Source of the DNA: Pectinatus cerevisiiphilus
GTDB lineage: Bacteria > Bacillota > Negativicutes > Selenomonadales > Selenomonadaceae
Reading direction: 5' to 3'
DNA length: 64,000 nucleotides
Assembly: GCF_004341685.1 (NCBI RefSeq)
Contig: NZ_SMAA01000006.1
Location: 62,001-126,000, forward strand
Under the pieces are notes generated by a model. The model did not search any database, was not told the origin of the DNA, and was given only the letters and a program-made list of their open reading frames with translations. Made by a program: the position numbers and the translations under genes. Of the stretch, positions 2,482 through 25,708 are shown one piece after another. Position 1 is the stretch's first letter; each line of letters opens with the position of its first letter.

Positions 2482-4209
2482 TCACCTTCCCACTGTTCCT
2501 GTGCTGTTTATAAGTTTATCTAACATTTCGTCCATAGTTGTTAAAACTCTAGTGCAGGCTGAATACCCCTGCTGAAATTTAATCATGTTCGTGAGTTCTT
2601 CGTTCCAGTTAACTCCGGAAATGGATTGTCTGGAATTGTCAACTTGTGTTACGATCGAGGTCATTTTGGTTACATTATCATCAGTAGTGGCTGAGGCAGT
2701 ACCTAATACAGCCATTGCGTCAGCATAATAGTCATTTAAAGATGAATTTCCGGTAGAACTTTGTTTTATTACATTTCCGTTGGCATCAAGTACTTGTCCT
2801 GCAGCGTTCCGTACAGTATCGCTGATAGCAGCCTCATTTAGTGATGTGTTAAAGAGTGTGCTTAAGGTTACAGCATTTGAACCATCTGCTTCATCAGCAG
2901 TTCCATTTTTAGTTGGGATCCTATCAGCATAATCAACTTTATTTCCTGATGCATCGGTGTAATAGGTTTTTCCATCAGCATCTGTGGTTTTATTTGCTCC
3001 CTTGGCAGCTATGTAATCTGTACCACCCTCAGCTGTTATTTTTTTGTTAACTGATAGTTCATTAATAAGGTTTATACCGCGCAATTTTTCGATACTACCA
3101 GTACTGTCAGTTTTTTCAACATAAGCTTTTTCGTAACCTTCAGCCAGACTATTTTTATCGTCTACCCAGTTGTAAGTATTTGTTGTATCCCCAAAAAAAT
3201 TGATATCAGTTGAGCCAGCACCGTTATTTGCACCGTCAATACCATATCCTTCTTTATGTTGGGCATTGAAGGTTGTAAGGAAGAAAGCAGAATAATCGGC
3301 AAGTTTATCAATGTAACTTTTATTTTCAGCAACGTTATCCTGCACAGCTTTCATTTCTCCGTCAGCAGGATTATAAATTGTTCCAGTTTCTTTGAATATC
3401 AGATTGTAATCAGTTATTCCATATTCTGAATTGTTTTCTGCTTGAAGACTTAGTGTAATTTTACTTTTACCATCGACTAAGGTACTGCCATTGCTGTTAA
3501 CAGTATAAGATCCGTCGCTTTGTATAATTACATCTGTTTTTACATATTTTGATAAATCATCAACAAGTTTATCTCTTTGATCACGTAAATCGTTTGCCAT
3601 GCCACCGTTGGCTTCCAGCTGCACGATATTCTTATTCAAAGACAATATTTGATCAGTAATTTTGTTGACGTCAGTTACATCTGCCTGCAATTGTCCATAG
3701 TTAGAAGTAATTTGTGACTGTACTTTAGAAGCCATGTCTTTTATCTTGTCAGTCATGGTTATAGCCATATCACGTACGTTAATACGGGTATCATTATCAC
3801 TGGCAGCCGTAGATAATTCTTGCCAAGAAGACCAAAAATCATTTATTGAACTTTTTAGTCCGACATCTTCACTATTTATTTGGGAATCATTAAAGATGTC
3901 TTCTATTGTCGTATAATTATTTTGTCGTTCTTCATAATACGATTTAGTAGAGTTTTCATTCCAATAATGTTTATCGGCAAAAATGTCACGGGCTCTTGTT
4001 ATTGAAGCTGCATTTACTCCAGTTCCTACATAACTGGTACCATATAATGTGCTTTGGTCTAATGCCTTTGTTGCCACCAAATTAACACTTTGGCGAGAAT
4101 AGCCTTCCGTGCTGTCATTGCTTAAATTTTGGCCAACGGTATCAAGTGCGAGCTGATGTGCTTGAATCCCACTGACCATTGTATTTAATCCTGAAAATGT
4201 CGATCTCAT
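2482..4209 (-). CDS. flgK: Flagellar hook-associated protein 1, FlgK
   Basis: FlgK forms the first ring of the hook-filament junction. The 575-residue protein opens with MRSTFSGLNTMVSGIQAHQL and VGQNLSNDSTEGYSRQ, the rod/hook/HAP N-terminal signature, and ends with the matching C-terminal helix (NWNEELTNMIKFQQGYSAC, then TMDEMLDKLINSTG). The middle, roughly residues 330-480, is a variable domain rich in Asp, Asn and Thr. It is exported without a cleavable signal peptide and should be chaperoned by the FlgN-type protein or proteins encoded just upstream. The gene is followed immediately by flgL and preceded by a 15-bp gap. Family assignment is very secure. Confidence 0.95.
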   Translation of the reverse strand: MRSTFSGLNTMVSGIQAHQLALDTVGQNLSNDSTEGYSRQSVNLVATKALDQSTLYGTSYVGTGVNAASITRARDIFADKHYWNENSTKSYYEERQNNYTTIEDIFNDSQINSEDVGLKSSINDFWSSWQELSTAASDNDTRINVRDMAITMTDKIKDMASKVQSQITSNYGQLQADVTDVNKITDQILSLNKNIVQLEANGGMANDLRDQRDKLVDDLSKYVKTDVIIQSDGSYTVNSNGSTLVDGKSKITLSLQAENNSEYGITDYNLIFKETGTIYNPADGEMKAVQDNVAENKSYIDKLADYSAFFLTTFNAQHKEGYGIDGANNGAGSTDINFFGDTTNTYNWVDDKNSLAEGYEKAYVEKTDSTGSIEKLRGINLINELSVNKKITAEGGTDYIAAKGANKTTDADGKTYYTDASGNKVDYADRIPTKNGTADEADGSNAVTLSTLFNTSLNEAAISDTVRNAAGQVLDANGNVIKQSSTGNSSLNDYYADAMAVLGTASATTDDNVTKMTSIVTQVDNSRQSISGVNWNEELTNMIKFQQGYSACTRVLTTMDEMLDKLINSTGTVGR

Positions 4210-4224
4210 TATTCATCATCCTTT

Positions 4225-4644
4225 TTATATGCTCTGATCAAACATCTTTATTTTTCTCGTACTGTTTGCTGTATCGCCATCAGGTTTATATGATGCACCA
4301 GCCACAGCTTGGGTCGCTACATTTATGTTAAACCTTATAAAGTCCATTCTATTTTTTAGCAACAGTGTATTAGCCGTATTGATTTTTTGAATATCTGCTG
4401 CTAGAGTTTTTATCTGCCCTAAAAACTGGTTAATAACAGCAGTATTTTCTTTGTCGGTATGTTCTTTTTTTATACTGCGGTCCAGTTTTTTTATTTCATT
4501 CATTAATGTTTCCATGTTATGGGTTTCTTCCTGGAAACTTTTGTCATTGAGTTCCGTAAGGTATGTCCTTTGCTGGGCAACACAGAGTTGCAATTGTTTA
4601 TAATTGTCAAGTTGCTGTTGATATTTATTTATTATGTCATCCAT
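4225..4644 (-). CDS. Second FlgN-like flagellar chaperone
   Basis: This predicted 139-residue, almost entirely helical protein lies between flgN and flgK. I read it as a FlgN/FliT-type export chaperone because it is a long coiled coil (about residues 5-110) followed by an NINVATQAVAGASYKPDG segment and a short C-terminal FDQSI. This mirrors the end of the preceding FlgN protein (MNINSLAGIKADPGYG, then FELKI). The shared C-terminal layout suggests an old tandem duplication, with each copy perhaps serving a different client (FlgK or FlgL). An alternative is a FliT-like FliD chaperone or an unrelated coiled coil. It starts 10 bp after the end of flgN and clearly belongs to the same transcript. 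Confidence 0.6.
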   Translation of the reverse strand: MDDIINKYQQQLDNYKQLQLCVAQQRTYLTELNDKSFQEETHNMETLMNEIKKLDRSIKKEHTDKENTAVINQFLGQIKTLAADIQKINTANTLLLKNRMDFIRFNINVATQAVAGASYKPDGDTANSTRKIKMFDQSI

Positions 4645-6789: not shown

Positions 6790-8949
6790 TTAATTTATGT
6801 TATGTGCCAGCCGTTCTGCCAGTAAAGTGTATCTTTTTTGTGTCCGGTTATTCTGCACAGCTGTGTATAAAGCTTTTTTGGAACCGAGCAGGATAACTTT
6901 TTCTTTTGCTCTTGTAACTGCTGTATATAAAAGATTGCGCTGGAGCATTATAAAATGTCCATTCGTAAGCGGTAATATAATAATTTTATATTCGCTCCCT
7001 TGGCTTTTATGGACACTCATGGCATATGCAAGCATTAATTGGTTGGTTTCAGCCTGTTGGTAATCTACACTATTTTCACCAAAAGTGACGGTGATTTTTT
7101 GCGGTGTTATTGCTTTTATAAAGCCTATGTCACCATTAAAGACATTTTTTTCGTAATTATTTTTTATTTGCATTATTTTATCGCCGCAACGAAAGGTCTG
7201 GGAGGCTGTTTTGTATTCGTTTTTTTCTGCTGAGGTACTATTTAAAGCATCCTGCAATAATTTATTTAGGTTGCTTACACCACAGGGAAGCCGATGCATT
7301 GGCGCAAGTACTTGTGCATCTGTAAGAGGATCAAAACCTGCGGCAGGCAGGTCGTTTTTACACAAAGAGACTATTTTTGCGGCTGTAGTTTCGTCATCTT
7401 CTATTTCCAAAAAAATAAAATCACTGCTTGAAGTATAGTCTGGCATTCTGCCGGCATTTATGGCATGGGCGTTATGGATTATTATACTTTCCTGTGCCTG
7501 ACGGAAAATTTCCTCAAGTCTTAATGAAGAAACAGCGCCCGAACGAAGCATGTCCTTTAATACGGCACCTGGGCCGACAGCGGGCAGTTGGTCGACATCA
7601 CCTACTAAAACAATACGGCAGCCGTTTGGTATTGCATTGAGAAAGTGTTGCATGAGCACTATGTCTACCATTGATACTTCATCAATTATGATGGCATCAG
7701 CTTCAAGTGGTTCATCACTGTCTTTGCCGAAGGTTGATTCGTCACCGGCTCTTATTCCTGTCGCTTCAAGCAGGCGATGGATAGTGCTGGCACTTTGTCC
7801 TGTCGATTCTGCCAATCTTTTGGCTGCCCGTCCGGTAGGCGCGCCTAATAGTACCTTTAAACCAAAATGCTGCAATACAAAAAGTATGCCTTGGATCACT
7901 GTTGTTTTTCCTGTACCAGGCCCACCGGTCAGGATGAACATGCCGTGTCGCAGCACAGCTTCGATAGCTTCCCTTTGTTTTTGCGCCAATTTTAATTGGC
8001 TGCCGGCTTCCCATTCGCTGGTCATCTTTGCCGCGTTTTCGAGAGGAAGCGGTTCGACACTGCTGTCAAGTTCTAAAATTCGCTGGGCAGTTTGTTTTTC
8101 CGCAAAATAAAGATAGGGCGGATAAATAAGCTGTTCACCGCCTATGTATTCCGTATATAGATGATCCTGGTCAATTTCTTGTTGTAATTTGGTATGGATG
8201 CTTTCTCTTCCTATATTTAAAAGCTTTGCTGTTTTAGTTACGATAAGGTTTTCCGGTGCACAGCAATGTCCATTTGTGGCTATTTGCAGTAATGCGAAAT
8301 TTATGCCGGCAATTATTCTGCTGTCATCGTTTTTTTCTACACCGAGCTGTGCAGCTACCTGATCTGCTGTTAAAAAACCGATACCGTCAATATCGTGTGC
8401 GAGCCGATAGGGATCATTTTCCATTATCTCAATGGCAAAAGAGCCATATTCTTCAAAGATGCGTCCGGCATAAGTGGAGGAAAGCCCATGTGTCTCCAGC
8501 CAGATCATAATTTCGCGCAGTTCGCCCTGTTCATTATACGATTCAAAAATTTTCTGCGCTGTTTTTTTACCAATACCGCTGACTTCACAGAGTTTGCCTG
8601 GTGAGTTTTCTATAATTTGCAATGTTTCTTTGCCGAACATGGCAACAATGCGTTTCGCCATAGCTGGGCCTATACCGGCAAGTGCCCCTGAAGACAAAAA
8701 GCGTTCAATGCCGTCAGAGCTGTCCGGTGCTGTTGCTTTCAGTTTAGCAGCTTTAAACTGTTGGCCGAAACGGGGATGGACTACCCAGCTGCCCTCTACA
8801 CAGACATTCTGTCCTACTAAAGGAGCGGGAAAACTGCAAGTGACTGTTATTGAAGTACTTTGTTGTTCTGGTTTCAAACGAAATACGCTAAAGCTGCCGG
8901 TAGCGTTGGTAAAAATCACCGCTTGGATACTGCCTTCAATCTTTTCCAT
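6790..8949 (-). CDS. recD2: ATP-dependent 5'-3' DNA helicase RecD2
   Basis: RecD2 is the RecBC-independent form of RecD, a superfamily 1B helicase involved in replication fork and mismatch processing. The 719-residue chain starts with the family's OB-like domain (residues 1-75). Two helix-hairpin-helix-like elements follow (AGIGPAMAKR near 91-100, VSGIGKKTA near 123-131), then a further IDGIGFLTAD near 190. The ATPase core has Walker A GGPGTGKTT at about 342-350 and the DEVSM box. The C-terminal motif VI region is VTRAKEKVIL, preceded by AYAMSVHKSQGSEY. The length matches full RecD2 proteins. It is followed at 20 bp by comFC. Confidence 0.95.
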   Translation of the reverse strand: MEKIEGSIQAVIFTNATGSFSVFRLKPEQQSTSITVTCSFPAPLVGQNVCVEGSWVVHPRFGQQFKAAKLKATAPDSSDGIERFLSSGALAGIGPAMAKRIVAMFGKETLQIIENSPGKLCEVSGIGKKTAQKIFESYNEQGELREIMIWLETHGLSSTYAGRIFEEYGSFAIEIMENDPYRLAHDIDGIGFLTADQVAAQLGVEKNDDSRIIAGINFALLQIATNGHCCAPENLIVTKTAKLLNIGRESIHTKLQQEIDQDHLYTEYIGGEQLIYPPYLYFAEKQTAQRILELDSSVEPLPLENAAKMTSEWEAGSQLKLAQKQREAIEAVLRHGMFILTGGPGTGKTTVIQGILFVLQHFGLKVLLGAPTGRAAKRLAESTGQSASTIHRLLEATGIRAGDESTFGKDSDEPLEADAIIIDEVSMVDIVLMQHFLNAIPNGCRIVLVGDVDQLPAVGPGAVLKDMLRSGAVSSLRLEEIFRQAQESIIIHNAHAINAGRMPDYTSSSDFIFLEIEDDETTAAKIVSLCKNDLPAAGFDPLTDAQVLAPMHRLPCGVSNLNKLLQDALNSTSAEKNEYKTASQTFRCGDKIMQIKNNYEKNVFNGDIGFIKAITPQKITVTFGENSVDYQQAETNQLMLAYAMSVHKSQGSEYKIIILPLTNGHFIMLQRNLLYTAVTRAKEKVILLGSKKALYTAVQNNRTQKRYTLLAERLAHNIN

Positions 8950-16367: not shown

Positions 16368-17294
16368 TTAATTCAAACTTTCATATATTTTGTCTAAGTC
16401 ATATTTTAAAACTGCAATGTAGTCCATACCATCAGGAATATCTTCAAGTGTATATATTTTTACAGCTTTGGCATTTACTTCATTTGCCAATGTTTCAGAA
16501 ACTTTAGGACTTACCATGTCTTCTACGAAAATCGTGGTGACATGATTTTCTTTGCAGTAGTCAGTTAATTCTTTTAACTTTTTGGCACTAGGTTCACCGG
16601 ACAGCAATGCATCTGATACACTGTTTTGCTGTAGGCCAAAATCTCTTGCCAGATAACCGAACGCAGCATGTCCTGTCACGAAATCTTTCCGTTTGGAGTT
16701 GGCAAATTTTGCAGCGTATTCTTGTTTTAACTGATCCATATCATTTTTTAAATTTTGGTAGTTCTTTTCGTAGTCATCTTTATTGGCAGGGTCAACTTGG
16801 ATCAAGGCATTTTTTATATTTTCTGCCTCTAATTCACCGCCCTCAATGCTTAACCAGATATGTGGGTCAGGCAGGCTTGTCCCATTGTCTGCTTTTTCAT
16901 CAAGCTGCAATGGTGTAGCTCCTTTTGATGCTTCTACTACGGTCAGTTCTTTTTTGTCAATCTTATCAGATACTGTAGAAAGTGATTTATCTAACCAAGA
17001 TTGTTCGAGGGAAAATCCATTATAAATGAATAATTTCGCATTTTGCAAAGTTGCCAGATTTTGTGCTGTTGGTTCAAAATTATGGGGTTCGCTGCCACTC
17101 GGAATGATGTTTTGTACATTGACATGGTCACCGCCGACAGCTTCCGTGATGGCTCTAATAGCATCAAATGAAACTACCACATTTAATTTTTGGCCGTCTG
17201 CATTTTGCTGTGCTTCTTTGTTAGTAGTGCCACAACCCCCCATTGTTAACAGAAAAAAGGAGAGGAGTAAATAAATAAGAAAATTTTTTTTCAT
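16368..17294 (-). CDS. znuA: Zinc ABC transporter substrate-binding lipoprotein, ZnuA family
   Basis: This is a cluster A-I solute-binding protein delivering zinc (or manganese) to the divergently encoded ZnuBC. A lipoprotein signal (LLSFFLLTMGGC, lipobox Cys near residue 21) anchors it. Metal-binding histidines are seen at SGSEPHNFEPT (about residue 72), LPDPHIWLS (about 146) and FVTGHAAFGYL (about 210), with the C-terminal acidic ligand region near FVEDMVSPK. There is only a short His/Asp-poor loop, unlike many ZnuA proteins. The pairing with a Fur-family gene in the partner operon favours zinc, but manganese cannot be excluded by eye. It is 308 residues, normal length, and transcribed away from znuC from a shared 180-bp control region. 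Confidence 0.88.
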   Translation of the reverse strand: MKKNFLIYLLLSFFLLTMGGCGTTNKEAQQNADGQKLNVVVSFDAIRAITEAVGGDHVNVQNIIPSGSEPHNFEPTAQNLATLQNAKLFIYNGFSLEQSWLDKSLSTVSDKIDKKELTVVEASKGATPLQLDEKADNGTSLPDPHIWLSIEGGELEAENIKNALIQVDPANKDDYEKNYQNLKNDMDQLKQEYAAKFANSKRKDFVTGHAAFGYLARDFGLQQNSVSDALLSGEPSAKKLKELTDYCKENHVTTIFVEDMVSPKVSETLANEVNAKAVKIYTLEDIPDGMDYIAVLKYDLDKIYESLN

Positions 17295-17331
17295 TGGAAC
17301 AGTGCCGCCTTTCTAAAATACACAAATAGAA

Positions 17332-17361
17332 ATTTTAGGTTTTATTTATACCTAGATGCAA
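17332..17361 (-). promoter_or_regulatory. Predicted promoter of znuA
   Basis: On the minus strand TTGCAT (17361-17356), an 18-nt spacer and TAAAAT (17337-17332). The -35 element adjoins the palindromic operator. Confidence 0.45.
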
Positions 17362-17380
17362 ATGCAAACTATTTGCATTT
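17360..17380. promoter_or_regulatory. Zur/Fur-type operator shared by znuA and znuCB-zur
   Basis: A perfect inverted repeat with arms AAATGCAAA and TTTGCATTT separated by CTA lies midway between the divergent genes. It overlaps the -35 element of the znuC promoter and touches that of znuA. An extra direct ATGCAA half-site is at 17356-17361. A Fur-family regulator is the last gene of the rightward operon, so autoregulated zinc repression is the natural reading. Confidence 0.7.
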
Positions 17381-17401
17381 AGAATAATATAAAGATATAA
17401 T
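17373..17401 (+). promoter_or_regulatory. Sigma-A promoter of znuC-znuB-zur
   Basis: TTGCAT (17373-17378), a 17-nt spacer and TATAAT (17396-17401). The -35 lies within the right arm of the operator. Confidence 0.65.
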
Positions 17402-17473
17402 AGTAAAGAGGAAATGTCAAGTCCGATATAAAAATATACTAATCAAAATGAGAGAAAATACACGGAGGTTATA

Positions 17474-18157
17474 ATGTTAAAAATAAAGCACTTATATTTT
17501 TCTTATAGTAATAAGCCTGAGCTTCTGAAAGATATAAATTTTTCAGTAAATAGGGGTGAATATATTTCGATAATCGGTTCCAATGGGTCCGGTAAGAGCA
17601 CTTTGGTGCGCTTGATTCTTGGTCTGCTTAAACCATCATCAGGCACTATTAGTAATTCTTTTCAAAATATGGCATATGTGCCGCAGCGGTTTAATCAGCT
17701 GAATACGCATTTTCCCATTACTGTAAAGGAGATATTGAACTGTTATAAAAATGTTCGGAAAAAACATATACATAAAGAAATAAAGGATGTTTTGACGCTA
17801 TTGCATATGCCGGAGGAGGAAAATACCTTGATCGGCCAGCTTTCTGGCGGACAATGCCAAAAGGTATTTATTGCCAGGGCACTTTTAGGTGATCCGGATT
17901 TGCTTATTTTGGATGAACCATCGAACGGCATAGATAGGCAGAGCCAAATTGATATATATAATTTTCTGGCCAATTTGAACAAGAATGAAAAGATGACAGT
18001 GATTTGCGTTGAACATAATTTACAGGCTGCATTGAAAAACTCGACATCATTTTACCATATTGAAAAGGGTAAGGGACATGTTTGTTTGCCAGAGAAATAC
18101 ATAAAGGAATATATTAAAAGTGATTTAGGAGAGAATACAGAGAATGTTTACTTATAA
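17474..18157 (+). CDS. znuC: Zinc ABC transporter ATP-binding protein ZnuC
   Basis: This 227-residue ATPase energises the zinc importer at the inner face of the membrane. Walker A is GSNGSGKST (about residues 36-44), the Q-loop lies in AYVPQRFNQ, the signature is LSGGQCQKVFIARAL and Walker B is DLLILDEPSNGID, followed by the switch histidine in CVEHN. GGAGG precedes the ATG by 5 nt. Its 3' end overlaps the znuB start by 14 bp, indicating translational coupling. It has normal length with no extra domain. Confidence 0.92.
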   Translation: MLKIKHLYFSYSNKPELLKDINFSVNRGEYISIIGSNGSGKSTLVRLILGLLKPSSGTISNSFQNMAYVPQRFNQLNTHFPITVKEILNCYKNVRKKHIHKEIKDVLTLLHMPEEENTLIGQLSGGQCQKVFIARALLGDPDLLILDEPSNGIDRQSQIDIYNFLANLNKNEKMTVICVEHNLQAALKNSTSFYHIEKGKGHVCLPEKYIKEYIKSDLGENTENVYL

Positions 18158-18959
18158 TTTTATGCAGAACGCATTTTTAATTTCTATTTTTATTGCGGCA
18201 TTATGTCCTGTTATTGGTATGTTCCTTGTGTTAAGACGATACTCAATGATGGGTGATACATTATCACATGCCTCTTTAGCCGGTATTGCCGTAGGCATGC
18301 TTTTTAACCAAAATCCTGTTTTGAGTGCATTTTTGATGGTTTCTTTTTTTAGTATTGCCATTGAGTGGCTCCGAAAACATTTTCGTACTTATGCCGAACT
18401 TATTTTGGTTATTATCTTGTCTCTTTCAATTGGTATAGCCATTACGCTTTTAAGTTCTGGCTTAGTTCATGCCAATATTGATTCATTGATGTTTGGCAGT
18501 GTTTTAACTGTCACACGTACGGATTTTTACTGGGTGCTATTTTTTAGTATCGTATCTTTATTTCTGGTATATAAGTTTTATTATGCCCTTGTGTTTATGG
18601 TCTTTGATGAAGAAGGAGCTGCTATTGCCGGAGTTAATATAAAGTTTATAAATTATCTTTTTGCGGTGATAGTAGCAGCGACTATTTCCATTTCCATTCG
18701 TATTGTAGGAATATTGGTCATAAGTTCACTTATTGCGCTGCCAATCGCCGCAGCACTCCAATTGGAGGTAGGTTTTAAAAAGACACTTTTATATGGTGTA
18801 TTATTCAGTTATATAGATATTTTTTCAGGGATAATTATTTCATATTGGATAAATGCTGCACCTGGCGGTATTATCGCGATAAATGCAGTATTATTGCTGT
18901 TATGTGTCCTCTTTTACAAACATAAAATTAAACATAGGGGGTCTGTTCAAAATGAATGA
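18144..18959 (+). CDS. znuB: Zinc ABC transporter permease ZnuB
   Basis: This 271-residue integral membrane protein of the ABC-3 family has about eight or nine hydrophobic segments. It shows LVLRRYSMMGDTLSHASLAGIA near the N-terminus (residues 27-50) and the family's GILVISSLIALPIAAALQL segment near residue 195. It overlaps znuC by 14 bp and zur by 8 bp, so the three genes form one tight operon. The C-terminus ends in a short basic tail. Confidence 0.92.
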   Translation: MFTYNFMQNAFLISIFIAALCPVIGMFLVLRRYSMMGDTLSHASLAGIAVGMLFNQNPVLSAFLMVSFFSIAIEWLRKHFRTYAELILVIILSLSIGIAITLLSSGLVHANIDSLMFGSVLTVTRTDFYWVLFFSIVSLFLVYKFYYALVFMVFDEEGAAIAGVNIKFINYLFAVIVAATISISIRIVGILVISSLIALPIAAALQLEVGFKKTLLYGVLFSYIDIFSGIIISYWINAAPGGIIAINAVLLLLCVLFYKHKIKHRGSVQNE

Positions 18960-19389
18960 ATGCGACAGTTATAAGCAATATCTGAACCAGCATGGCATGA
19001 AGAGTACAAAGCAGCGGAATTTACTGTTATTGATTCTGAAAAAGATACAGGAGCCGCAGACTGCAGAGAAGCTTTATCTGATAGCTAAGGAAACTGATTC
19101 GTCTATAAATTTATCTACGGTATATAGAGTTCTGGAGAAATTTACCGAAAAAAAAATAACAATACGCACGTCATTTTTAGATGACAAGTCGGTATATTCA
19201 CTTTATCCTAAGACGCACCAGCACCAATTGATTTGTCTCCGCTGCAAGAAAATCGTTCTGCTTGAGAATTGTCCGTTGGAGGCGTTTCAGCACAGTGTGG
19301 AAAAGTCTACAGATTTTTCCATAGTGAATCATCGGCTGGAATTATATGGATATTGCAGACAATGTCAAAAAATTATAGCAGCAAATTAA
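18952..19389 (+). CDS. zur: Fur-family metalloregulator, probably Zur
   Basis: This 145-residue DNA-binding repressor has the Fur winged helix (LNQHGMKSTKQRNLLLLILK, then SSINLSTVYRVLEKF with the recognition helix). The C-terminal dimerisation domain has a metal motif HQHQLICLRCKKIV and a second zinc pair CRQCQ. The start ATG at 18952 overlaps the znuB stop, and GGGGG lies about 10 nt upstream; the longer open frame runs through znuB and is not used. Its place at the end of znuCB and the palindromic operator upstream support zinc sensing. PerR- or Fur-type specificity is a formal alternative. Confidence 0.85.
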   Translation: MNECDSYKQYLNQHGMKSTKQRNLLLLILKKIQEPQTAEKLYLIAKETDSSINLSTVYRVLEKFTEKKITIRTSFLDDKSVYSLYPKTHQHQLICLRCKKIVLLENCPLEAFQHSVEKSTDFSIVNHRLELYGYCRQCQKIIAAN

Positions 19390-19437: not shown

Positions 19438-19466
19438 TTGCATTTTATATTTTTTAGTGATAAGAT
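19438..19466 (+). promoter_or_regulatory. Sigma-A promoter of the M-box transcript
   Basis: TTGCAT, a 17-nt spacer and TAAGAT. The predicted start near 19473 lies just ahead of the riboswitch core. Confidence 0.6.
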
Positions 19467-19487
19467 TGTCCAGTAAACAATTGTATA

Positions 19488-19653
19488 AGGTTTTGTTAGG
19501 TGAGGTTCCTGCAATAAACATAGGCTATTGCCCGGAAACATCGAGAGATGCCAATGGGTAGGACAGGTTTTATCGAAATAAGGTATTACCCGAGATAGCT
19601 GAGTATTTATACTCTACGTTATGCAGTGCTAAAACTTGGACGATTAAAAGATT
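19488..19653 (+). promoter_or_regulatory. M-box (ykoK) magnesium-sensing riboswitch
   Basis: The conserved core of the M-box is directly readable: GTTAGGTGAGGTTCCT (19495-19510), GGCTATTGCCC, then GCCAATGGGT (19550-19559) with GACAGG, ATAAGGT, and the 3' element TATGCAGTGCTAAA followed by GGACGATT. The blocks occur in the same order and spacing as in the Bacillus mgtE M-box. In that RNA, bound Mg2+ compacts the fold and lets a downstream terminator form. Here an intrinsic terminator follows 20 nt later (19671-19710), so high Mg2+ should stop transcription before the ABC transporter genes. The assignment is by sequence pattern only; no folding was computed. Confidence 0.92.
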
Positions 19654-19670
19654 ACTATATTTTGCGCTTT

Positions 19671-19710
19671 CGAACCCTCCTGATTTTATATTGGGAGGGT
19701 TTATTTTTTT
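19671..19710 (+). terminator. Riboswitch-controlled terminator
   Basis: AACCCTCC (19673-19680) pairs with GGAGGGTT (19694-19701) and is followed by TATTTTTTT. It is the expression platform of the M-box and lies about 95 bp before the permease start. Confidence 0.88.
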
Positions 19711-19748
19711 GCAAAATACTATTTAAACGTATTGGGGAGGTGGTAAGT

Positions 19749-19952
19749 ATGGATGATGGCGAGGGACTGGAAAAGAGAATTAAAAATTTATTTTTAGGAG
19801 GAAACCATGGAAGTATTTACCAAATCTTTAGCGAAAAGAAAATTTTCGCTTACGGACGTAATAATAATTGCAGTTATTTTTGTTATTTTATATGCTATTT
19901 TAAAATTAAGTGCAGGCATGAATATTCCCTTTACGCAGGGAGACAGGCTTGA
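19749..19952 (+). CDS. Possible leader ORF overlapping the permease start
   Basis: A 67-codon frame begins at ATG 19749 behind a near-perfect GGGGAGG with 8-nt spacing, stronger than most in the window. It starts MDDGEGLEKRIKNLF, runs out of frame across the permease start (19807) and stops 146 nt inside it. The codons beyond 19807 are probably only a shadow of the permease gene. Only the well-placed ribosome binding site and the acidic first residues argue that it is translated. No homologue is recognised. Confidence 0.3.
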   Translation: MDDGEGLEKRIKNLFLGGNHGSIYQIFSEKKIFAYGRNNNCSYFCYFICYFKIKCRHEYSLYAGRQA

Positions 19953-21549
19953 GATAGATCTTTCTCCGCTAATGCTGCCTTATTATGCGGGGCGGTCACT
20001 GCTGCGCATGTTTATAGCATTTTTCTTTTCCCTTTTGTTTACCTTTATATATGGTTATGTTGCGGCAAAAGTGAAAGCGGCAGGAGCTATAATGATACCT
20101 GTCTTGGATATTTTGCAATCTATTCCGGTTCTGGGTTTTTTATCAGCGACCATAATAGCTTTTATGGCAGCTTTTCCCAACAGTCTCATGGGGGTGGAGT
20201 GTGCTTCTATTTTTGCTATTTTTACAGGACAGGCTTGGAACATGACTTTTAGTTTCTATCATTCCTTAATAACTATTCCCCAAGATTTGGAAGAGGCAGG
20301 GCAGATACTGCATTTTAATCCTTGGCGTAGATTTATTAGCATAGAACTGCCTATTTCGGCTATCGGCCTTATTTGGAATGGGATGATGTCATTTGGCGGT
20401 GGTTGGTTTTTCCTTGCGGCCAGTGAAGCTATTAGTGTTTTAGGAGAAGATATACATTTGCCGGGAATTGGTTCATATCTTGCTGTTGCAGTAGAGTCAG
20501 GCAATGTGCAGGCAATGCTGTATGCTATGCTGGCAATGCTGATTATGATTTTACTGGTCGACCAACTTTTTTGGCGGCCGCTCGTGGTATGGGGCCAGCG
20601 TTTTAAGCTGGAACTTTCTGAAGCTGGTGAACAACCTACTTCCTTTGTTTATGATGTCTTGTATAAATCGTATGTAATGCATTGGTTATACCATCATTTA
20701 TTGTCACCGTTGGGAGGATTTCTTAATAGCAATATTTTAAAATTCTTTGATGGCGTAGAAAGTAGATCGCAAAAATATCTATATGTGAATAAGAGAAATT
20801 ATTTAGTAGAAGTATGTAAAATTTTTATCATAATCGTTGTTTTATATAAGCTTTATGCTCCTGCTAAGGAAGCTGCGTTGCTGCTTTATAATATGGGATT
20901 ACAGGATTTGTCGCAAGCCTTTATGCTGGGCATATATACTGCGGGGCGTGTAATTGCCGCCCTCTTTTTAGGAGCTCTCTGGACTATACCGGTAGGCGTA
21001 TGGATAGGACTTAATCCAAAGCTGTCAGCAAAGCTGCAACCAGTGATCCAAATAGCGGCTTCATTTCCGGCCAATATGCTTTTCCCATTTTTTACGATAT
21101 TATTTATTAATTATCATGTTAATTTTGAATATGGGTCTATTTTATTGATGATGCTTGGCACACAATGGTATATTCTTTTTAATGTTATTGCTGGCACTAT
21201 GAGTATTCCTAATGATCTGCTTGAAGCCACAAATATTTTTGAGCTGAGAGGCTGGAAAAAATGGAAGACTTTGATATTGCCGGGTATTTTCCCTTATTTA
21301 GTGACGGGGTTTATTACTGCTTCGGGCGGTGCCTGGAATGCGAGCATAATCTCCGAAATCGTCAGCTGGAAGGAACATACGCTTACTGCTTCGGGTATAG
21401 GTGCCTATATTAGTGAAGCTACTATTGCTGGTAATTGGAATGAAATCTTGGTGGGTATAACTGTAATGTGTATACTAGTAGTCTTTATAAACCGCTTCGT
21501 ATGGCACAAATTATATTATATGGCGCAGACGAAATATCATATGGATTAA
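19807..21549 (+). CDS. Fused two-domain ABC transporter permease under M-box control
   Basis: This 580-residue membrane protein consists of two binding-protein-dependent transport domains in tandem, of the nitrate/taurine/bicarbonate superfamily. Each half has about six hydrophobic segments and an EAA loop that contacts the ATPase: LEEAGQILHFNPWRRF near residue 160, and LLEATNIFELRGWKKW near 470. A hydrophilic linker (about residues 270-345) joins them. The start has TAGGAGG 5 nt upstream. The ATPase gene follows 18 bp later, but no substrate-binding protein is encoded on either side. Databases usually label such proteins as nitrate or sulfonate permeases; the upstream magnesium riboswitch instead suggests a divalent cation or an Mg-linked substrate. 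That function is inference. Confidence 0.85.
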   Translation: MEVFTKSLAKRKFSLTDVIIIAVIFVILYAILKLSAGMNIPFTQGDRLEIDLSPLMLPYYAGRSLLRMFIAFFFSLLFTFIYGYVAAKVKAAGAIMIPVLDILQSIPVLGFLSATIIAFMAAFPNSLMGVECASIFAIFTGQAWNMTFSFYHSLITIPQDLEEAGQILHFNPWRRFISIELPISAIGLIWNGMMSFGGGWFFLAASEAISVLGEDIHLPGIGSYLAVAVESGNVQAMLYAMLAMLIMILLVDQLFWRPLVVWGQRFKLELSEAGEQPTSFVYDVLYKSYVMHWLYHHLLSPLGGFLNSNILKFFDGVESRSQKYLYVNKRNYLVEVCKIFIIIVVLYKLYAPAKEAALLLYNMGLQDLSQAFMLGIYTAGRVIAALFLGALWTIPVGVWIGLNPKLSAKLQPVIQIAASFPANMLFPFFTILFINYHVNFEYGSILLMMLGTQWYILFNVIAGTMSIPNDLLEATNIFELRGWKKWKTLILPGIFPYLVTGFITASGGAWNASIISEIVSWKEHTLTASGIGAYISEATIAGNWNEILVGITVMCILVVFINRFVWHKLYYMAQTKYHMD

Positions 21550-21567
21550 GCGGAAGGGGAGAAAAAC

Positions 21568-22845
21568 ATGAGAAATTTATTGGAATTAAAAGATATTAAA
21601 AAGACATTTAAAATAAAGGATGCCTCTGATTCTGTAGTTTTAGAAGGTATTAATTTACAGGTAAAAGAAGGAGAGTTTTTGGCTGTGCTAGGCCCTTCCG
21701 GTTCTGGTAAATCCACGTTGCTGCGCATTATTGCAGGGCTTATACCAAGTTCGGGCGGAACGGTTTCTTATCTGGGAAAAGAAATTCACGGTGTCAATCC
21801 GGGTGTGGCCATGGTCTTTCAATCTTTTGCGTTGTTTCCTTGGCTGACAGTTTTGGAAAATGTTATGCTGGGCTTAGAAAGAAAGAAGATGTCTGCGGCG
21901 GATAAAAAAGAAAAATCCATGCAGGTATTGGATATTGTGGGGCTGGATGGTTTTGAAAATGCCTATCCGAAGGAGCTTTCCGGCGGGATGCGACAACGTG
22001 TGGGAATTGGCAGAGCGCTTGTCAGTGAACCGGATATCTTACTTATGGATGAAGCTTTTTCGGCACTTGATGTCCTTACGGCTGAAAACCTGCGTCGTGA
22101 TTTATTGGAACTATGGTTGGATAAAAAAATACCTACCAAATCGATTGTACTGATTACGCATGGTATTGAAGAAGCCGTTTATATGGCAGACAGGGCTGTG
22201 ATTTTATCTTCAGGGCCGGCTACGATAATTAAAAATATCAATATAGACTTGCCCCGTTGGCGTAATAGGAAAACACCGGAATTTTTGGCATACGTTGATG
22301 AAATATATTCTATTATGACGAAGAGAAAAACCTCTGTTACTGAACAATTGGTACAGGTTAAAAAGAATTTGATTATTCCACCCGTTTCAGCAGGAGCTTT
22401 GACAGGTTTTTTGGAATTATTGGAGGATCTTAATGAAAAAATAGATTTGTATAAACTGGCTAATCGTTTTCTCATGGACATGGAGGATTTTTTACCCTTG
22501 ATAGAAGCTTCATCCTTATTGGAATTTACAAAGGTTACCGAAGGGGATATTGAACTTACTGCGCATGGTGTGGAATTTGCAAGGGCAACTGTATTGGAAA
22601 GAAAAAAATTGTTTTGCCAGCAACTTTTAGCGCATATTCCTTTTGTGCAGAAAATGATAAATATCTTACGCTCTAAATCCAATAGACAAATGAATATAGA
22701 ATTTTTCGAAGAACTGCTATCGCATATTTTCGGTGAAGAAACAGCAAAAAAGCAATTAGATTTGCTGATTAGCTGGGAACGGTATGCGGAGCTTATCGAA
22801 TATGATGATAATAAGGAAATAATTTATTTGGAACAATCCAGGTAA
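21568..22845 (+). CDS. ABC transporter ATPase with C-terminal AAA-associated domain
   Basis: This 425-residue partner ATPase of the fused permease has Walker A GPSGSGKST (about residues 42-50), a Q-loop in VFQSFALFPW, signature LSGGMRQRVGIGRAL, Walker B ILLMDEAFSALD and the switch histidine in VLITHGIEEA. Beyond residue 265 it carries an extra domain of about 160 residues, helical and charged, that resembles the C-terminal AAA-associated domain found in some uncharacterised ABC ATPases. Such a domain could sense substrate or regulate transport, much as cytoplasmic domains do in other importers. It is the last gene of the M-box transcript and ends at a bidirectional terminator. Confidence 0.85.
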   Translation: MRNLLELKDIKKTFKIKDASDSVVLEGINLQVKEGEFLAVLGPSGSGKSTLLRIIAGLIPSSGGTVSYLGKEIHGVNPGVAMVFQSFALFPWLTVLENVMLGLERKKMSAADKKEKSMQVLDIVGLDGFENAYPKELSGGMRQRVGIGRALVSEPDILLMDEAFSALDVLTAENLRRDLLELWLDKKIPTKSIVLITHGIEEAVYMADRAVILSSGPATIIKNINIDLPRWRNRKTPEFLAYVDEIYSIMTKRKTSVTEQLVQVKKNLIIPPVSAGALTGFLELLEDLNEKIDLYKLANRFLMDMEDFLPLIEASSLLEFTKVTEGDIELTAHGVEFARATVLERKKLFCQQLLAHIPFVQKMINILRSKSNRQMNIEFFEELLSHIFGEETAKKQLDLLISWERYAELIEYDDNKEIIYLEQSR

Positions 22846-22903: not shown

Positions 22904-22957
22904 AAACTGCCCTCTATAGATTAGATTTTAAGTCTAATTTTATAGAGGGCAGTTTTT
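22904..22957. terminator. Bidirectional terminator between the ABC operon and leuS
   Basis: AAACTGCCCTCTATA (22904-22918) pairs perfectly with the complement at 22941-22955, with TTAGA/TCTAA pairing inside the loop. T-tracts occur in both directions, serving the rightward ABC operon and the leftward leuS. Confidence 0.88.
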
Positions 22958-25469: not shown

Positions 25470-25500
25470 AAAAAAAGCCCCTGGCGTAAAAGCCAAGGAC
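25470..25500 (-). terminator. T-box terminator of leuS
   Basis: On the minus strand GTCCTTGGC pairs with GCCAGGGGC across a 6-nt loop and is followed by seven T residues. It ends about 25 bp before the leuS ATG and is the alternative to the T-box antiterminator. Confidence 0.88.
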
Positions 25501-25708
25501 GATAATATCGCGGTACCACCCTGATTAGCAGCAATGCTGCCCACTCAAAGATATTAACGCTATCAACGCCGTTATGCGGAAGTCTCCGCAGCGAGTTCAA
25601 AACGGGTATATGCCGATTCACATCAACCACCGGCTTTCTGTAAAATATCCCCTAATTTTTACTATTCTGCATCATAAACTGTTAAAGTATTATTTTTTTA
25701 AACTGTTT
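25470..25708 (-). promoter_or_regulatory. T-box leader sensing uncharged tRNA-Leu
   Basis: The T-box sequence GGGTGGTACCGCG is present on the minus strand at 25521-25509, upstream of the intrinsic terminator. The stem I region (about 25690-25575) contains GAACTCGC, in which CTC (25595-25593) is the likely specifier codon for leucine, in agreement with the downstream gene. Uncharged tRNA-Leu should stabilise the antiterminator and allow leuS transcription. Confidence 0.9.

Follow-up and report, generated by a model that had tools for sequence, protein, structure and literature searches.

Several described systems resemble parts of a locus in Pectinatus cerevisiiphilus, in which an M-box riboswitch precedes genes for an ATP-binding cassette (ABC) permease with two fused domains and an ABC ATPase with a C-terminal AAA_assoc_C (PF09821) domain. 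The locus lies in a stretch of 64,000 nucleotides of contig NZ_SMAA01000006.1 (the window, whose positions are used below). In Bifidobacterium breve, as in the window, an M-box stands ahead of an ABC transporter with a COG4986 permease (Bbr_0406-07, M-box in the 5' untranslated region), and a role in metal homeostasis was suggested in one sentence (PMC5746004). The passage concerned treats one locus, without comparative, structural or functional work, and is silent on the missing binding protein, on neighboring Mg2+ genes and on an upstream open reading frame (uORF). An earlier sequence-only reading of the window had known of no described case, which this sentence in print contradicts. In Candidatus Liberibacter asiaticus, CLIBASIA_02415/02420 likewise combine a permease of two transmembrane domains with a PF09821 ATPase, and no binding protein was detected. 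They were called 'a possible novel ABC system', Nrt/Ssu/Tau-like and of no specific substrate; unlike the window, the system is described there with no M-box or Mg2+ link and with an oxoacid ion as possible substrate (PMC3688454). NrmT shares with the window pair an M-box before a gene whose family has another presumed substrate, and M-box-controlled NrmT was proved experimentally to be a Mg2+ importer; unlike the pair, it is an Nramp-related carrier and not an ABC system (PMC4072509). The M-box targets listed in the sequence-only reading (MgtE, CorA, MgtA/MgtC) hold, but the list was incomplete, NrmT being one more.

Among solved transporters, NrtBCD/CmpBCD have the closest permease by sequence and the closest ATPase by fold; unlike the window pair, they have one-domain permeases with Arg in an LRTVP motif. 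They work with the binding proteins NrtA/CmpA. FbpBC (9j4r) shares the two-domain permease and carries a metal ion (ferric), at 14% identity and a template-modeling (TM) score of 0.50 to the window permease, and works with FbpA. No characterized ABC importer of Mg2+ was found among the open-licence PubMed Central papers listed; phrases such as 'magnesium ABC transporter' do occur there, so absence from print does not follow. For the leader, the closest described system is MgtL of E. coli and Salmonella: its uORF is short, has an acidic/proline start and precedes the gene of a Mg2+ importer (a candidate one in the window). In E. coli, ribosomes are destabilized at its EPDP motif at low Mg2+, which controls mgtA (PMC11282234, PMC11552253). 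In the parts of these papers considered, MgtL is Rho-dependent, experimentally demonstrated and not reported behind an M-box, whereas the window uORF is known from sequence only. In M. tuberculosis, a uORF behind an M-box has a conserved N-terminus, its role being described as unclear in the part of the paper considered (PMC12810186). PMC4072509 holds no mention of a uORF, peptide or leader peptide.

The elements of the window locus were found in place, and its kind was found linked to Mg2+ genes repeatedly. A role of this ABC system in Mg2+ homeostasis is well supported, and we consider it probable that the locus is a Mg2+-starvation-induced ABC importer of Mg2+ that works without a binding protein.

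The riboswitch, the operon and its two proteins

The main features of the locus were as follows.

19483..19508, + strand, predicted 5' strand of an antiterminator, within the 5' side of the aptamer (constrained fold)
19485..19655, + strand, M-box (Mg2+-I / ykoK) riboswitch aptamer (RF00380, full model 1-169)
19672..19710, + strand, intrinsic terminator, a 13-pair stem (19672-19702) and T tract (scan and fold)
19749..19952, + strand, short uORF of 67 codons with its own Shine-Dalgarno (SD) sequence GGGGAGGTGGTAAGT and start MDDGEG, overlapping the permease start by 146 bases
19807..21549, + strand, ABC permease of 580 amino acids (aa) with two fused BPD_transp_1 domains (PF00528 in two stretches, 71.9 bits)
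21568..22845, + strand, ABC ATPase of 425 aa with C-terminal AAA_assoc_C (PF00005 113.6 bits, PF09821 122.4 bits)
22450..22806, + strand, AAA_assoc_C domain of the ATPase (residues 295-413)

The RF00380 match scored 146.4 bits (gathering score 44, E 3.1e-33), too high for a chance M-box, and was the sole M-box match in the genome. A custom covariance model gave the same M-box 141.4 bits, the window being part of that model's alignment. Terminator-like matches across the region numbered 2 against 3.2 in shuffles, i.e., not above shuffles. With the 3' arm of the terminator blocked, its 5' arm (19672-19691) paired with 19483-19508 in the constrained fold. Antiterminator and terminator are predicted to be mutually exclusive, which is the usual layout of an M-box off-switch. 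Under plentiful Mg2+, the M-box would fold, the terminator would form and the operon would be off, as is established for other M-boxes and predicted here from the fold; at low Mg2+, the 5' strand of the aptamer would pair with the 5' arm of the terminator and transcription would proceed.

Permease and ATPase genes are separated by 18 bases. No binding-protein gene was found in the operon by Pfam search and a check of the window's ORFs, and no PF09084 or PF13379 match on the window's contig; elsewhere in the genome there are NMT1-type binding proteins (10 PF09084 matches). The pair has the domains of the NitT/TauT subgroup (PF00528, PF00005), with no binding-protein gene in the locus, and the permease is presumably COG4986-like. 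NCBIfam matches to the two proteins (ntrB, TauC, SsuC, SaoA) were all under cut-off (e.g., ntrB 67.4 of 209). No homology was found to the known Mg2+ importers CorA, MgtE, MgtA and NrmT, the Pfam matches being ABC-transporter domains and P-loop relatives only. The M-box, the terminator behind it, the fused permease with its AAA_assoc_C ATPase and the lack of a binding-protein gene had all been read from the sequence earlier and were confirmed by these searches.

Structure models were obtained at a predicted local distance difference test score (pLDDT) of 87.6 for the permease and 89.3 for the ATPase. FbpBC was the best Foldseek match of the permease (E 1.5e-7, TM 0.50, root-mean-square deviation 10.4 over 578 columns), followed by CmpB and NrtB. 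An EAA-like loop was read from the alignment in both permease halves. Each half has, in the model, a short beta hairpin after a conserved Glu (E207, E517), and the loop after this Glu is about 5 residues longer than in CmpB/NrtB. The LRTVP motif of NrtB corresponds to LQSIP in permease domain 1 (Gln104 for Arg and, three residues earlier, Asp101 for Gln); in domain 2, AASFP is aligned with the CmpB motif (Ala for Arg). D101, Q104, E207, N511 and E517 were invariant in 51 aligned permeases, D101 and Q104 also in a separate set of 20. The change at the LRTVP motif would fit a cation path. We infer that no dedicated binding protein takes part and that the two-domain permease, with two copies of the ATPase, imports Mg2+ or a Mg2+ complex.

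The AAA_assoc_C domain would probably be regulatory, e.g., in feedback inhibition by cytosolic Mg2+. A solved counterpart was sought and rejected: the sequence search gave no credible match, and the Foldseek matches of the whole ATPase were ATPase subunits or ATPase-bearing chains. A winged helix has been predicted for this domain (PMC3688454).

Recurrence of the linkage among relatives

Two samples were searched, one of the order (189 genomes) and one of the phylum (398 genomes), together with relatives from GTDB genomes with named records, from which a profile scan gave the best 80 of at least 592 related stretches (the named loci). In the order, seven genomes carried an M-box (8 M-boxes in total); six of these preceded the ABC pair, the window included, one preceded an NrmT-like gene, and the last was followed by mgtC and a P-type ATPase that passed the Mg2+-ATPase cut-off. 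In the phylum, PF09821 was present in 27 genomes (28 matches at E 0.001 or better, one under cut-off) and the M-box in 134 (145 matches, one under cut-off). An M-box lay upstream on the same strand of 15 of the 28 PF09821 matches, all 15 in the arrangement M-box-permease-ATPase (in G209, an antisense ORF hid the ATPase, which was seen on closer mapping). By coded family, 11 of these were from f16, 2 from f24 and 1 each from f1 and f92. Random placement would put an M-box 600 bases or less from the permease start about 0.002 times.

Among the named loci, the custom model found 13 M-boxes in 12/80, all 13 confirmed by Rfam. The M-box was upstream in sense in 11/80, spread over Bacillota, Chloroflexota and Actinomycetota: Pelosinus, a Bacillota metagenome-assembled genome (MAG) whose contig matches G252 and is already in the phylum count, three Paenibacillus, two Clostridium, an anaerolinean, a ktedonobacterium and two Nocardia. 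The permease was the next long gene in 9/11, and mgtC intervened in the two Nocardia. The M-box label needed 9 changes on a FastTree tree of 100 permeases, 25 of them with M-box, 6 changes being forced by starred branches and the tree carrying a warning on long branches that meet; the M-box association was therefore gained or lost several times.

No riboswitch other than the M-box was found upstream in sense by Rfam in the 52/80 named loci scanned. An alternative riboswitch for the M-box-less relatives was rejected, a scan of 40 of their loci having shown none upstream in sense; 10 loci of the phylum sample had no Rfam match. In Alicyclobacillus (L115), a S-adenosylmethionine riboswitch (4171-4286, - strand) stands just before the ABC permease on the opposite strand. 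In Streptomyces orinoci (L148), two M-boxes flank the ABC pair (3751-3924, - strand; 7688-7861, + strand); one stands before an NrmT-like gene that immediately follows the pair, and the second is directed away, to ORFs in which no Mg2+ gene was recognized. In G044 (L015:6717-8541), the permease frame is disrupted into two overlapping ORFs with X in the translation, perhaps by assembly error; another M-box of this genome, its second, stands ahead of mgtC and mgtA.

AAA_assoc_C is encoded apart from the ATPase in coded families f16 and f92, by an ORF of about 160 aa. Several f16 genomes have other genes between the two, and in G550 the domain follows the ATPase at a distance of about 10 kb. Since the domain is separate or distant in f16 (L077, L079, L081, etc.), it would work in trans or have another role.

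To test the neighbors, proteins of the CorA, MgtE, NrmT-like, MgtA and MgtC kinds were used as tblastn queries against 110 sources, made up of the window, five loci of the order, 24 of the phylum and the 80 named ones, matches being counted within about 4.5 kb. Independently of the riboswitch, a Mg2+ gene (mgtA, mgtC, corA or NrmT-like) stood in the flank of 11/110 sources, a count made with no random-locus control and with two queries taken from searched loci (L111, L148). All 11 were among the named loci, and 9/16 actinobacterial loci had such a neighbor:

L111 and L147, corA in the flank, over the NCBIfam CorA cut-off (2/2 scanned)
L142 and L148, NrmT-like gene in the flank, just short of the Nramp_1 cut-off
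L154, mgtA-mgtC-ABC, the ATPase over the NCBIfam Mg2+-ATPase cut-off and MgtC under NCBIfam cut-offs
L157 and L166, mgtA-ABC, ATPases over the NCBIfam Mg2+-ATPase cut-off
L161, divergent mgtA-mgtC (tblastn only)
L162, mgtC-ABC, MgtC over the Pfam cut-off
L183, mgtC-ABC, MgtC under NCBIfam cut-offs
L180, CorA-like match about 2.8 kb away (tblastn only)

MgtA was over cut-off in 3/3 neighbors scanned (L154, L157, L166). The matches in L111 (CorA) and L148 (NrmT) are self-hits, L148 being matched by another NrmT-like query as well. A partial P-type ATPase match in L111 was discounted.

MgtE was over cut-off in 240/398 phylum genomes, in 3/24 clear ABC genomes vs 237/374 others (p 9e-7, kinship uncorrected) and, by genus, in 4/14 ABC genera vs 172/253 others (p 0.004, kinship uncorrected). 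The 24 ABC genomes exclude G336 and G371 (weak PF09821) and G426 (partial). Genomes of f16, f24 and f92 that lack the ABC pair have an M-box before a gene for CorA (G530) or an MgtE-like protein (G354, G385, G479, G520, G560 and others), and G354 shares its genus with two ABC genomes. Five ABC genomes (G252, G392, G486, G502, G548) had neither CorA nor MgtE over cut-off. In G502 (99% complete, ABC pair without M-box), no CorA, MgtE, Nramp or MgtA was over cut-off, and the ABC pair is the only candidate Mg2+ importer among the families tested. One CorA and three Nramp matches (two strong, one distant) were found in the window's genome, with no MgtE or MgtA over cut-off. Two genomes have an NMT1-type binding protein some 2 kb away from a distant Nramp homologue (G000:C5:152876-156621, G045:C3:189707-193469).

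Acidic-start uORFs in M-box leaders

The window uORF (MDDGEGLEKRIK...) starts at an ATG at 19749 behind a strong SD, between terminator and permease. ABC relatives keep its start (MDDGES, MEDGET, MDDGSG, MDDSDS, MDSDSS) while the remainder varies; f24 starts are MDADPGPQLD and MDADPEPQMD, and those of Paenibacillus are weak (MDSCS, MDSSS). Acidic-start uORFs of this kind also occur where the M-box precedes genes other than the ABC pair, among them MgtE- and CorA-like genes (not all of these genes were identified).

For the statistics, 109 leaders were gathered from part of the 145 phylum M-boxes and some other loci, and 97 were kept (dropped: 3 with no main ORF, 8 with a gap <80 bases, 1 duplicate). 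The furthest upstream start was taken for the main gene, which can hide uORFs. In 64/97 leaders, the window included, an ATG uORF behind an SD had D/E at residue 2 (mean 2.8, maximum 7 in 100 dinucleotide shuffles). Two or more acidic residues at positions 2-7 were found in 41/97 (shuffles mean 1.1, maximum 4) and Pro at positions 2-7 in 39/97 (mean 0.6, maximum 3). The reverse complement of the leaders gave 10 SD-preceded ATG uORFs, and D/E stood at residue 2 in none of them. Acidic starts made up 67/121 SD-preceded ATGs vs 30/202 ATGs without SD. With one leader per genus, 41/65 had the acidic uORF, and per family 28/43. The motif is M-D-x-[GD]-P/S, the starts across the 97 leaders including MDxDP, MDDP, MDAGP and MESEE. 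Residue 2 is encoded by GAC (34), GAT (19), GAA (9) and GAG (2), and all four Pro codons are used; this mixed codon use points to conservation of the peptide rather than of the RNA.

By one common criterion, the uORF was present in 41/97 M-box leaders, 3/69 M-box-less ABC loci and 3/317 control genes; acidic uORFs therefore go with the M-box, and the idea that they are a property of the ABC genes themselves was rejected. A Selenomonas MAG (L110:4440-4500) has an acidic uORF, MDAGADGSRDDE, with a strong SD although its ABC pair lacks an M-box. Beyond Bacillota, starts were MDAGPSSSRPP in L181 (Chloroflexota) and MDGSSCSSP in the NrmT-like leader of L148 (Streptomyces). No acidic uORF was found in L145 and no clear one in two Nocardia loci, and none was seen in four f16/f92 ABC loci with a gap of 52-72 bases.

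The acidic-start uORF is thus apparently a common M-box feature. That of the window has the sequence traits of an MgtL-type uORF (SD, acidic start, position before a candidate Mg2+ transport gene) and may be a second Mg2+ sensor. By resemblance to MgtL, ribosomes would drop off the uORF at low Mg2+, and the permease start would no longer be occluded.

Candidate cargoes, flanks and implications

A number of observations weigh against a binding-protein-independent Mg2+ importer. Type I importers do not normally work without a binding protein, and with NMT1-type binding proteins elsewhere in the genome, an unlinked partner protein of this type is possible. The nearest solved relatives by sequence (CmpB/NrtB) carry anions. 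CorA is present in the window's genome, so the ABC pair is not the only possible Mg2+ importer there. In the phylum sample, 13/28 PF09821 matches are not co-located with an M-box (three weak, G336 twice and G371, and one partial, G426), the linkage is absent in 9/24 clear ABC genomes, and most of the 15 linkages come from one family. The M-box precedes an NrmT-like gene in G344 and G548; that of G414 is followed by an ORF truncated where the contig ends. Among the named relatives, 69/80 have no M-box upstream in sense, many of them belonging to phyla where M-boxes are uncommon.

Regulation and neighborhood reveal the condition of use, not the substrate, and the pair could serve the Mg2+-starvation response with another cargo, such as a Mg2+-organic acid complex, another divalent ion, K+ or a polyamine. 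Solved relatives carry small anions or, by fold, Fe3+, and MgtC is not itself a Mg2+ importer. We nevertheless hold this unlikely, as the other genes behind M-boxes or near the ABC pair belong mostly to known Mg2+ transporter families or MgtC, genomes of the same coded families without the pair have the M-box before MgtE-, CorA- or NrmT-like genes, and MgtE rarely co-occurs with the pair. An ordinary NitT/TauT oxyanion importer driven by the M-box, with its binding protein unlinked, would agree with the NMT1-type proteins elsewhere in the genome and with the nitrate, taurine and sulfonate systems among the NCBIfam matches, all under cut-off. It is highly improbable: no binding protein was recognized beside the ABC genes in the window or the mapped M-box loci (ORFs read by eye), the M-box association would need several gains or losses, mgtA-mgtC-ABC arrays exist, and the LRTVP Arg is absent. 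That some Mg2+-regulated genes, MgtC among them, are not importers also leaves room for a Mg2+ exporter or a sensor without transport, which is the least credible of these readings, given the fold of type I importers and the EAA-like loop in both halves. M-boxes turn genes off at high Mg2+, in the part of the source considered (PMC4072509), which is the wrong sense for an exporter. Import of Mg2+ by the pair is the reading we prefer as probable; the sequence-only reading had proposed a candidate ABC-type Mg2+ transporter, and M-box linkage in three phyla, Mg2+-gene neighbors and a tendency not to occur together with MgtE support it.

Further features of the window around the locus are listed below.

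16368-17294, - strand, znuA-like gene, divergent from the next set (Pfam search)
17474-19389, znuC-like, znuB-like and fur-like genes (Pfam search)
19438..19466, + strand, weak promoter-like pair TTGCAT-17-TAAGAT with a poor -35 (sequence reading)
22904..22957, + strand, long inverted repeat ending in a T run, a possible terminator common with the convergent gene (sequence reading)
25492-25684, - strand, T-box (Rfam 106.8 bits), upstream of a large minus-strand ORF beside the locus

The region 16368-19389 resembles an ordinary zinc uptake set. A Zn2+ role for the pair was rejected: two loci (L011, L014) also have an ABC ATPase upstream and three (L012, L013, L015) do not, so the neighborhood varies while the M-box is constant. 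We take the large minus-strand ORF to be leuS-like. The terminator scan did not report the inverted repeat. Promoter-like matches in the region were at shuffle level (12 vs 12.4) and the pair at 19438-19466, implied by the start coordinate of the sequence-only reading, was not listed by the promoter scan, so that the promoter is putative.

If the pair does import Mg2+, it would be a new class of Mg2+ importer and an unusual type I importer working without a binding protein, and a large family now called nitrate/sulfonate/bicarbonate transporters would be re-labeled. More tentatively, and with somewhat less confidence than an even balance would give, the pair may found a widespread unrecognized class of primary-active Mg2+ importers, and M-box leaders may at the same time carry a peptide-based second Mg2+ sensor. 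The putative class would consist of type I ABC systems that lack a binding protein, and its relatives would range from Bacillota to Cyanobacteria, Actinomycetota and Pseudomonadota. The second sensor would be an MgtL-type uORF with an acidic/proline start, so that aptamer (transcription) and nascent chain (translation) might both read Mg2+ in one leader. The acidic uORFs lead to the direct prediction that many Mg2+ genes under riboswitch control have two readers, the RNA and the nascent peptide.

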